From Candidatus Latescibacterota bacterium (lineage in GTDB: Bacteria; Latescibacterota; UBA2968; GCA-2709665), in NCBI GenBank assembly GCA_012270675.1, contig JAAXHW010000068.1, positions 1-32,448 of the forward strand: DNA of 32,448 bases, read 5' to 3'. Shown piece by piece: positions 12,748 through 15,611 of this stretch. Below the pieces are notes generated by a model. That model made no database searches and was not told where the DNA came from. It saw only the letters and a program-made list of their open reading frames with translations. Position numbers and translations under genes: made by a program. The stretch's first letter is position 1. The number at the start of each line of letters is the position of its first letter.

Positions 12748-12818
12748 GACAGGACGCTCCCGATATAAGTTGTACCCATGATCTATCGCTCTGCCAGGCT
12801 TTCCGACATCACCCTATG

Positions 12819-12847
12819 AATTTACAGTTGTCGTGAATTTCTGTCAA
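12819..12847 (-). promoter_or_regulatory. Predicted promoter of the PqqD-family gene
   Basis: On the minus strand a perfect TTGACA (12847-12842) is followed after 17 bases by TAAATT (12824-12819). The start codon lies about 70 bases downstream. The -35 boxes of this promoter and of the leuS promoter are less than 30 bases apart and point away from each other. Confidence 0.55.
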
Positions 12848-12874
12848 GCCAAAGGGGCCGTTAAAAAATAGTGG

Positions 12875-12903
12875 TTGACGGATGTGCTTTTCCGGGTTAT
12901 TTT
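12875..12903 (+). promoter_or_regulatory. Predicted promoter of the leuS leader
   Basis: TTGACG (12875-12880), a 17-base spacer and TATTTT (12898-12903) predict transcription from about 12910. That gives a leader of about 265 bases before the leuS ATG, long enough for regulation in the leader RNA. The -10 is identical to those predicted for sufB and nuoA. Confidence 0.6.
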
Positions 12904-12931
12904 TTTTGAAGATTACTTTCCGGGGTATTCG

Positions 12932-13093
12932 ATGATGCAAATAGATCGTGCAGGCACAACCGTCCGGATGGATATACCAGCAGCGCCGTGTATCCGGTTC
13001 GGATGGACTCTCCTTCTTAGCGGTGGGCTCCTCGGTCTTTGCGCCGGGGGCTCTGCAGGGGGAGAGGCGTGCCTTAGACCGTTCGTATTTTAA
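12932..13093 (+). CDS. Candidate leucine-rich leader peptide upstream of leuS
   Basis: This open frame of 53 codons starts about 20 bases after the predicted transcription start, with a weak G-rich ribosome-binding site (CCGGGG, 12920-12925). It reads MMQIDRAGTTVRMDIPAAPC and later TLLLSGGLLGLCAGG. Six of the ten codons from 13010 to 13039 are leucine, and all seven leucine codons of the frame are CTC or CTT, whereas neighbouring genes use mostly CTG. The frame ends 25 bases before an intrinsic terminator that precedes leuS. This is the arrangement expected of a transcription attenuator sensing charged leucine tRNA. It could instead be a small hydrophobic protein or a chance frame; expression is not shown. 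Confidence 0.5.
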   Translation: MMQIDRAGTTVRMDIPAAPCIRFGWTLLLSGGLLGLCAGGSAGGEACLRPFVF

Positions 13094-13118
13094 CCGTTTT
13101 GGACACCTGTTCTTTTTG

Positions 13119-13151
13119 CCCGCTGCCGAGCCCGATCGGCAGCGGGTTTTT
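13119..13151 (+). terminator. Intrinsic terminator / attenuator immediately before leuS
   Basis: CCCGCTGCCGA (13119-13129) and TCGGCAGCGGG (13136-13146) form a perfect 11-bp stem with the loop GCCCGA, followed by TTTTTATTT. It lies between the predicted leuS promoter and the leuS ribosome-binding site (GGGAGG, 13163-13168), so it must be read through for leuS to be expressed. A competing pairing is possible: GGGCTC at 13048-13053 (another copy at 13025-13030) is complementary to GAGCCC at 13128-13133, which would disrupt the terminator stem. Confidence 0.8.
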
Positions 13152-13174
13152 ATTTGTTTCCCGGGAGGTTTCTC

Positions 13175-15574
13175 ATGGTTGCCGAATACGATTTCCAGAA
13201 GATCGAACGGAAGTGGCAGGAGGTCTGGCGGCGAGAGGGGACGCTGAACGTTCGGGCGCCGTCGGATGCGCCGGATACCTATGTGCTGGATATGTTTCCC
13301 AATCCTTCCGGACCGCTGCACATGGGGCATTGCAAGAATTATGGGATCGGAGACGTGGTCGCCCGCTACCGCATCCGGCGGGGGGAGAATGTGTTCCACC
13401 CGATGGGCTGGGACGCGTTTGGGCTGCCGGGTGAGAATGCGGCTTTGCAGGCGGGGGCGCATCCCCGGGACTGGTCGCTGGAAAATATCCGGACGGAGCG
13501 GGCGCAGTTTGAGAAGCTGGGGATTCACCACGACTGGAAGTACGAGGTCTGTTCGTGTGACCCGGCGTATTACCGGTGGAATCAGTGGCTGTTTTTGAAG
13601 CTCTATGAACATGGGCTGGCCTACCGGGCGGAGGCATCGGTGAACTGGTGCCCGAAATGCGGCACGACGCTGGCCAATGAGGAGGTGATCGGAGGGGCCT
13701 GTGAGCGGTGCGAGACAGAGGTGGAACTGCGACCGATGCGGCAGTGGTTCGTGAAGGTGACGGCCTATGCGGACGCGTTGCTGAAAGGGCTGGAGGCATT
13801 GTCGGGCTGGCCGGAGCGCATCCGATCGATGCAGCGGCACTGGATCGGGAGGACCGAGGGTGCGCAGGTGCGGTTCCGGTTGGCGGACGGCGGCGAGATT
13901 GTTTCATTTACAACACGGCCCGATACGCTCTTCGGAGTGAGTTTCGTGGCCCTGTCCCCCGACCATCCCCTGGCTGAAAAGCTGTGCGGCGATTCAGGGG
14001 CGCTGGACCGTATTCGACGCGCCTGGACGCAGCAGGATGGGAGCGCCGCAAAACCGAGGGGCGTACCCACAGGAGCCGACGCGGTCCACCCTCTGACCGG
14101 TGTGCGGGTGCCGGTCTGGATTGCCGACTATGTGCTGATGGACTACGGGACCGGGGCGGTGATGGGGGTGCCGGCGCACGACGCCCGGGATTTTGCGTTT
14201 GCACAGGCCTACCGGCTGCCGGTGGTACGGGTCATCGATGGGGGAGGGCGCCTCGAAGCGGGTCTGCCCTATGAAGGGGAGGGAACGCTGGTGGGGTCGG
14301 GGCGGTTTGACGGGATGGGCAACCGGGACGGGGCAGCGGGGATTGTCGAGGCGCTGGAAGCGCGGGGGGCTGGCGGTAAGGCGGTGAGCTACCGGCTGAG
14401 GGACTGGTGCATCTCCCGGCAGCGCTACTGGGGGACGCCGATTCCGATTGTGGACTGCGTCCGCTGCGGCGAGCTGCCCGTGCCGGAGGCGGACCTGCCG
14501 GTGCGCCTGCCCCACCTGGTCGATTTTCGGCCCGACGGCCGATCGCCCCTGGCACGGGCGCCGGGGTTTGTGCAGACGGTATGTCCGCAATGCGGTGGGA
14601 CAGCCGGGCGGGAGTGCGATACCATGACGGGGTTCGTGTGTTCGTCCTGGTACTTCCTGAGGTTCGTCTCACCTGATGAAGGACAGCGGCCGTTTGATCC
14701 GGAGCTGGTGCGCCGGTGGCTGCCGGTGGCGCATTATATCGGCGGGAAGGAACACGCGGTGGGACACCTGCTCTACGCGCGTTTTATGACGCGGTTTCTG
14801 AAGGACATCGGGTGGGTGGACATCGAGGAGCCCTTTGTGCGCCTGTTCAACCAGGGAGTGGTCTACAAGGATGGGGCGAAGATGTCCAAGTCTAAGGGAA
14901 ACGTGGTGGGGGTGGACGAGATGGTAGAGACCTATGGCGCGGATACGGCGCGGGTGTTTGTGCTGTTTGCCACGCCGCCGGACCGGGATATGGCGTGGAG
15001 CGATACGGGCGTGAAAGGGATCTTCCGGTTTTTGACGCGGGTGTGGCGGGCGGTACTGGGTGAAGAGGGAAGCCCCGGTGTGGAGCGGGAAGAGGAGCTC
15101 GTGCGTGTGACCCACCGCACCATCCAGTCGGTGACGGACGATCTGGAGCGGATGCACTTTAATACGGCGATCAGCCGGCTGATGGAACTGACAACGGCGA
15201 TCCAGCAGGCGGTTCAGGCAGGAGAGAATTGGACCGGGGTGCGGGAGGCTCGCGAGGCCCTGGTGTCGATCCTGGCGCCGTTTGCACCTCATATTGCGGA
15301 GGAGCTGTGGCGCCTGTTGGGAAAGTCGGGAAGCGTACACCGGGCGCCGTGGCCGTCCTGCGATCCGGCGCTGGCTGCGGAAGAGGTGGTCACGGTGGTG
15401 GTGCAGGTCAATGGGAAGGTGCGGGACCGTTTCCAGGTGCCTGCCGGCACGCCGGAGGAGGCGCTGAGGCGGAGGGTCGAGGGCCGGAAACGGGTGCAGG
15501 CGCACTTAAGGGGACGAAAGGTGTTGCGGACGGTGGTGATACCGGGTCGGCTGGTGAATTTCGTGGTAGCGTAG
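13175..15574 (+). CDS. leuS: Leucyl-tRNA synthetase
   Basis: LeuS is a cytoplasmic class I aminoacyl-tRNA synthetase that charges tRNA-Leu. The product is 799 aa from ATG 13175. The HIGH motif is HMGH in FPNPSGPLHMGHCKNYGIGD (about residues 41-60) and the KMSKS motif is intact at residues 569-573. A CP1 editing domain lies between them, with FTTRPDTLFGVSFVALSPDH near residue 250 and the conserved VMGVPAHDARDFAFA. Zinc-ribbon-like Cys pairs (WCPKCGTTLANEEV, then CERCE) follow the catalytic region, as in bacterial LeuRS. The frame extends to an upstream TTG (13154), but GGGAGG six bases before ATG 13175 fixes the start. It is preceded by a leader with an attenuator-like structure. Confidence 0.98.
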   Translation: MVAEYDFQKIERKWQEVWRREGTLNVRAPSDAPDTYVLDMFPNPSGPLHMGHCKNYGIGDVVARYRIRRGENVFHPMGWDAFGLPGENAALQAGAHPRDWSLENIRTERAQFEKLGIHHDWKYEVCSCDPAYYRWNQWLFLKLYEHGLAYRAEASVNWCPKCGTTLANEEVIGGACERCETEVELRPMRQWFVKVTAYADALLKGLEALSGWPERIRSMQRHWIGRTEGAQVRFRLADGGEIVSFTTRPDTLFGVSFVALSPDHPLAEKLCGDSGALDRIRRAWTQQDGSAAKPRGVPTGADAVHPLTGVRVPVWIADYVLMDYGTGAVMGVPAHDARDFAFAQAYRLPVVRVIDGGGRLEAGLPYEGEGTLVGSGRFDGMGNRDGAAGIVEALEARGAGGKAVSYRLRDWCISRQRYWGTPIPIVDCVRCGELPVPEADLPVRLPHLVDFRPDGRSPLARAPGFVQTVCPQCGGTAGRECDTMTGFVCSSWYFLRFVSPDEGQRPFDPELVRRWLPVAHYIGGKEHAVGHLLYARFMTRFLKDIGWVDIEEPFVRLFNQGVVYKDGAKMSKSKGNVVGVDEMVETYGADTARVFVLFATPPDRDMAWSDTGVKGIFRFLTRVWRAVLGEEGSPGVEREEELVRVTHRTIQSVTDDLERMHFNTAISRLMELTTAIQQAVQAGENWTGVREAREALVSILAPFAPHIAEELWRLLGKSGSVHRAPWPSCDPALAAEEVVTVVVQVNGKVRDRFQVPAGTPEEALRRRVEGRKRVQAHLRGRKVLRTVVIPGRLVNFVVA

Positions 15575-15577
15575 ACA

Positions 15578-15597
15578 GATCGGCGTTGGCGCCGATC
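15578..15597. terminator. Hairpin between leuS and the convergent 319-aa gene
   Basis: GATCGGCG (15578-15585) and CGCCGATC (15590-15597) pair perfectly around a TTGG loop, starting three bases after the leuS stop. There is no uridine run on either strand, so it is a weak or factor-dependent terminator at best. It separates two convergent genes whose stops are 37 bases apart. Confidence 0.5.
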
Positions 15598-15611
15598 GTA
15601 ACACCGGGGCA

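Follow-up and report, generated by a model that had tools for sequence, protein, structure and literature searches.

A predicted leucine attenuator precedes a second, divergent leucyl-tRNA synthetase gene in a Latescibacterota genome

The leader of the leuS gene in the window, i.e., the whole 32,448-nucleotide contig (C267) of a metagenome-assembled genome of the Latescibacterota (G000, 94% complete), is very probably a classical ribosome-mediated transcription attenuator placed before a second, acquired, and divergent leucyl-tRNA synthetase (LeuRS) gene. As compiled in Table 1, the window contains the elements that define an attenuator: a cluster of cognate codons in a short open reading frame (ORF), a terminator before the gene, and a mutually exclusive antiterminator that is released by stalling in the computed folds. 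All coordinates given in the original prediction of this switch were right.

Table 1. Features of the leader and leuS region, in positions of the window
Feature	Position	Strand	Remarks
Cassette (leader and leuS)	12748..15611	+	Flanked by native pqqD on one side and the native conserved gene and lexA on the other; approximate borders
Promoter-like TTGACG-17-TATTTT	12875..12903	+	9/12 consensus matches; statistically weak
Leader ORF, 53 codons, MMQIDRAGTTVRMDIPAAPCIRFGWTLLLSGGLLGLCAGGSAGGEACLRPFVF	12932..13093	+	GC3 low (0.52); weak Shine-Dalgarno; putatively translated
1:2 hairpin	13008..13066	+	Segment 1 holds the Leu codons; predicted to block antitermination when the ribosome is absent
Regulatory Leu codons	13010..13039	+	6/10 Leu, every one CTC/CTT; a stall here, not further downstream, is predicted to free segment 2
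Segment 2, antiterminator 5' strand, GGGGCUCUGCAGGGGGA	13047..13063	+	Duplex with 13118-13134; compensatory changes in relatives
Segment 3	13118..13134	+	Common to antiterminator and terminator
Intrinsic terminator (3:4 hairpin, then U-tract)	13118..13151	+	4/11 pairs with two-sided changes in relatives
leuS Shine-Dalgarno GGGAGG	13163..13168	+	-11.5 kcal/mol
Auxiliary leuS, 799 aa	13175..15574	+	TIGR00396, 933.9 bits; Y43N, with further rare substitutions close to the synthetic site

The run of six Leu codons in ten, from which the prediction had started, reads CTC CTT CTT AGC GGT GGG CTC CTC GGT CTT, and the seventh Leu codon of the leader is CTT at 13073, all seven thus being CTC or CTT. 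In contrast, the native neighboring genes prefer CTG (54% of their Leu codons), as had been pointed out; the CTG share is 77% in the window leuS, which is devoid of any CTT codon. When a quarter of the G000 genome (0.99 Mb) was surveyed, the terminator of the window leader was the only one of 236 to have at least six Leu codons within ten in the 40-140 nt preceding it, whichever frame was read. The full set of attenuator features was detected at two of 207 G000 terminators, namely the window leader and the end of a nuoH-like coding region. The remaining matches of the attenuator scan (this nuoH end and loci L170, L072, L086, and L020) were, where examined, coding ends or plain terminators. The pyrimidine-rich segment 1 raises the likelihood of Leu codons somewhat by composition, and the density of the Leu run exceeds what composition would give.

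The promoter-like sequence that had been pointed out is present at its proposed site and is statistically weak, with two such matches found against 0.5 expected, and the Shine-Dalgarno of the leader is likewise unremarkable, at -6.4 kcal/mol compared with a mean of -5.3 for random sequence. Together with the low GC3 of the frame and a 1:2 hairpin that by itself is only a little more stable than those of shuffles (z -1.8), these weak signals would suit a plain terminator that ends some short transcript from upstream, such as a small RNA or a decayed gene; the Leu frame would then have arisen by chance from the pyrimidine-rich arm of a hairpin or be what is left of a signal peptide. We consider this explanation quite unlikely, since shuffles do not reproduce the switch, the same terminator in relatives sits before leuA and ilvB with Leu/Val leaders, and both helices covary, as described below.

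The terminator was located just before the leuS ribosome-binding site, as anticipated. The pairing of GGGCTC (13048-13053) with GAGCCC (13128-13133), which had been proposed to break it, turned out to be larger than these six pairs, forming part of a duplex between segments 2 and 3 with 13 pairs in all, two single mismatches, and a stability of -29.2 kcal/mol. Taken alone, this antiterminator duplex was modestly unusual (69 of 2,000 shuffles), and the whole leader folded far better than shuffles (z -5.3). A second strong hairpin was observed at about 12958-13002, inside the leader ORF upstream of the Leu codons, with the near-repeat TCCGGATGGA at 12963 and 12998.

The behavior of these alternative folds was assessed by a stall scan, in which the RNA left free 3' of a ribosome at each leader codon was folded, the polymerase having just cleared segment 3. 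Placing the A site at 13013-13031 and the polymerase at 13135-13141 gave an antiterminator probability of 0.93-1.0, compared with 0.01 without a ribosome. Once the A site reached 13034 or beyond, the ribosome covered segment 2 and excluded the antiterminator, and the terminator attained 0.93-0.99 in the full RNA; folding thus agreed with the predicted alternative, the antiterminator being freed by a stall on the Leu codons and the terminator forming otherwise. Of 1,325 dinucleotide shuffles, none attained the switch score; of 326 other window fragments, one did. At full equilibrium, the terminator prevailed for the majority of stall positions, the antiterminator not exceeding 0.72, and the mechanism must therefore be kinetic, as in known attenuators. 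Near-identical scans gave 0.68 on the Leu codons and 0.01 without a ribosome for Escherichia coli leuL, 0.56 on the Trp codons for trpL, and, for thrL, a drop from about 0.8 to 0.05 once its codons had been passed.

On this basis, a ribosome would translate the 53-codon peptide while RNA polymerase transcribes the leader. With Leu-tRNA uncharged, the ribosome would stall at 13013-13031 and open the 13008-13066 hairpin, and the freed 13047-13063 would capture 13118-13134 ahead of the terminator, so that leuS would be transcribed; in the absence of a ribosome, the first hairpin would form and transcription would stop. Sensing of Leu-tRNA charging through the CUY codons, as initially put forward, is the best-supported mechanism. 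Genes for five tRNA-Leu isoacceptors were found, one of which is GAG, and theory holds that isoacceptors lose charging unequally upon amino acid limitation (PMC1183508).

To look for related attenuators, the leader was used for a DNA search across the phylum collection of 64 species, each represented by a genome and 21 of them belonging to the order of the source, and selected loci were then scanned with a terminator pattern. Besides the leader itself, the DNA search returned a 39-nt terminator match in a genome of the same class (G021), and a second, weak match (G026) at which no attenuator was found. In G021, two tandem attenuators precede the gene for the acetolactate synthase large subunit (ilvB; NF006016, 943 bits), each behind a Leu/Val-rich leader (leader MPTIRPTSRLTTTLLGVLTGVVCLVVVLVLRVRQREGP). 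The pattern scan yielded one further locus, in G016 of the same order, where tandem attenuators lie about 90 bases upstream of the 2-isopropylmalate synthase gene (leuA), with leaders MKHQTHSLNLLLLIIDLLLTEGSAGGMVRL and MTIQHTQLSLILLSLLGLPQKLAVGKACA that contain nine and eight Leu codons, respectively. The three Leu leaders (the window and the two of G016) contain 24 Leu codons, none of them CTG, and GSAGG in segment 2 was common to the relatives and the window leader. As both loci were found via the terminator sequence and not via the gene, their siting before leucine or branched-chain genes constitutes independent support for the attenuator. In the stall scan, G016 copy 1 behaved as a clean switch and G021 copy 2 was positive, and in G016 copy 2 and G021 copy 1 the terminator was released past the codons, with the antiterminator favored without a ribosome too. 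A scan for attenuators before the main leuA of the order-mates, mostly not anchored on the true leuA start, found none. The stretches of order-mate genomes that were examined contained no ilvB.

Covariation was evaluated in an alignment of five attenuators from three genomes (A3), hand-trimmed to the two helices. For the terminator, 98.2% of the cells were paired and 4 of 11 pairs had changed on both sides, which was equaled by 2 of 500 shuffles for changed pairs and by none of 500 for cells paired. For the antiterminator, the corresponding values were 92.6% and 3 of 11, with 8 of 500 shuffles as good. Sliding the partner strands destroyed the signals of both helices alike.

Comparison with the relatives also revealed a TAG at 13075-13077, near the stop position of their leaders and one base out of the window-leader frame, and slow decay following displacement of the window leader stop is thus conceivable. 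This stop and the weak Shine-Dalgarno of the leader could indicate a relic, that is, a once-working leucine attenuator that was brought along with the acquired leuS and is no longer tuned. Such a reading seems unlikely in view of the intact antiterminator and terminator, the density of the Leu run with its avoidance of CTG, and a stall profile that equals that of leuL.

Sensing by RNA or protein without ribosome stalling, either through a T-box-like RNA that binds tRNA-Leu or through LeuRS autoregulation, was also considered, given the strong structure of the leader with its extra hairpin and the occurrence of T-boxes (before pheS) in the order. The leader gave no match to the T-box family (RF00230) at the gathering score or up to E 10, no convincing hit among the other Rfam families with E relaxed to 10, and no AGGGUGGNACCGCG motif; moreover, the Leu codons lie within the stall window, and the leaders of the relatives are alike in their peptides and not in any aptamer, rendering such sensing highly improbable. 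The T-box of G000 itself, with AGGGUGGUACCGCG, lies before a gene checked as pheS (L001 1501-1822; G000:C289:15210-15531; E 1.5e-17). T-boxes numbered one per genome in 17 of the 21 order members, with G017 looking like G000, and none was present in the 43 other genomes of the phylum.

As for the regulated gene, the original prediction was right in naming leuS, but the gene is a second, inserted, divergent copy and not the housekeeping one. In seven relatives (five family members and two order-mates), nuoN, pqqD, the conserved gene, and lexA are contiguous without leuS, and the leader and leuS therefore represent a single insertion. Direct repeats flanking the borders of the cassette were looked for, and none was found. 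On the minus strand, a promoter-like TTGACA-17-TAAATT at 12819-12847 faces pqqD and diverges from the leader promoter. Contamination as the origin of the contig was ruled out by Obg, of which G000 has one copy sharing about 70% identity with that of the order-mates, and by the conserved gene order sprA-coaD-obg-lexA. The presence of a SprA homologue suggests an affiliation of the phylum with the Fibrobacterota-Chlorobiota-Bacteroidota group. G000 may comprise two species in one bin, against which speak a contamination score of 7-9% that family members show as well and the fit of the LeuRS on contig C203 to the family.

C203 carries the other full leuS of G000, the product of which is 71-76% identical to the LeuRS of the order and which is the housekeeping gene. 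The window LeuRS, in turn, shares 43-46% identity with the LeuRS of order-mates, exceeds the cut-off for bacterial LeuRS (TIGR00396; 933.9 against 548.4 bits), and retains the HIGH, KMSKS, and editing motifs. In a tree of 120 sequences it formed the longest branch and was unplaced; its best match anywhere was about 50% identical, and no close kin was found in 80 named genome loci, the 64 phylum genomes, two further tiny phyla, plasmids, or viral contigs. The housekeeping leuS (G000:C203; order-mates L116 and L104-L131) nests within a Chloroflexota/Thermomicrobiota clade, a placement that suggests an old gene replacement. Separately, a Chloroflexota leuS (L031 2509-2714, gene start 3001) is preceded, at a distance of about 350 nt, by a 25-codon leader MKRTAQMIQPTLLRHLLLEGLILGW, a terminator, and another palindrome, which together make a further candidate leucine attenuator.

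At position 43, the window LeuRS has Asn where all of the 119 other LeuRSs compared have Tyr, and it also has Gly86, Ala519, Lys525, and Gly530 at sites where the others are more uniform. Tyr43 and the 520-531 region are presumed here to line the leucine site of LeuRS; published support for Tyr43 in the leucine pocket was searched for and not found. Judged from the sequence, Y43N and the other rare changes are only suggestive of inhibitor resistance, and no inhibitor gene cluster was seen in the window. As to leucine supply, leuA (TIGR00973) was undetected at 1e-60 in G000 and G002 and scored over the cut-off in 18 of the 21 order members; the two genomes may reflect leucine auxotrophy or missing sequence.

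Because the gene served is a second, acquired, and divergent LeuRS, the switch would bring a spare synthetase into play when charged Leu-tRNA is short, be it through leucine starvation or through inhibition of the housekeeping LeuRS. A broader proposal, which we put forward tentatively and regard as doubtful in its entirety, is that movable branched-chain amino acid attenuators (leuA, ilvB) form a family specific to this phylum. In this view, a LeuRS gene that arrived by horizontal transfer and encodes an altered leucine site would have taken over one of these attenuators, and the resulting spare synthetase, possibly insensitive to inhibitors, would come on once the housekeeping LeuRS is blocked. 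An attenuated, altered LeuRS would point to an unknown LeuRS inhibitor or to leucine stress in nature.

The window switch is most likely a known kind of attenuator in a phylum for which no leader-peptide attenuator was found described in the literature searched. The suggestion of novelty hence stands for the phylum, which is small (64 species) and not one of the large classic ones, as had been supposed, but not for the regulated gene, since leader-peptide attenuators of leuS and trpS were already predicted in Streptomyces (Seliverstov et al., 2005; PMC1262725). A 2010 paper named Proteobacteria and Actinobacteria as the only groups with known leader-peptide systems and added a hisS case of Bacillota (Firmicutes) (PMC2965389), and a comparative survey of attenuation of aminoacyl-tRNA genes is cited from the same year (Lopatovskaya et al., 2010, cited in PMC4833913). 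The five linked attenuators of this uncultured phylum, which precede leuA, ilvB, and leuS, would widen the range of this regulation and, with the pheS T-box, would show both systems side by side within one order.

Among the known systems, E. coli leuL (leuABCD) has a Leu-codon cluster, 1:2, 2:3, and 3:4 segments, and the same stall profile as the window leader, but serves a biosynthetic operon in Pseudomonadota, the resemblance lying in layout and stall profile. The Streptomyces leuS/trpS attenuators, also computational predictions, resemble it in the Leu-rich leader and in the antiterminator and terminator directly before leuS; they belong to Actinomycetota, the available text of that report mentions no second leuS, and the likeness is one of description (PMC1262725). 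Like the window locus, the Bacillota hisS* combines leader-peptide attenuation with a duplicated aminoacyl-tRNA synthetase gene outside the classic phyla, and its attenuators hop between genes, but it concerns histidine and Bacillota (PMC2965389). AgnB2, the agrocin-84-resistant LeuRS, is a second LeuRS with a change just before HIGH (T42 against N43 of the window), whereas it is the self-immunity gene of an antibiotic producer and the window enzyme keeps P42 and KMSKS (PMC5059758). The window leuS, too, is a second divergent copy beside a housekeeping gene, as expected of an auxiliary synthetase, and its attenuator would be the leucine counterpart of that of the auxiliary, indolmycin-resistant trpRS1 of Streptomyces, a second synthetase under ribosome-mediated attenuation by a leader peptide for its own amino acid (Vecchione and Sello, 2010, cited in PMC4787780); trpRS1 differs in amino acid and phylum, and its resistance and regulation, according to that citation, were tested experimentally, whereas for the window leuS the regulation is predicted and resistance only suggested by the sequence.
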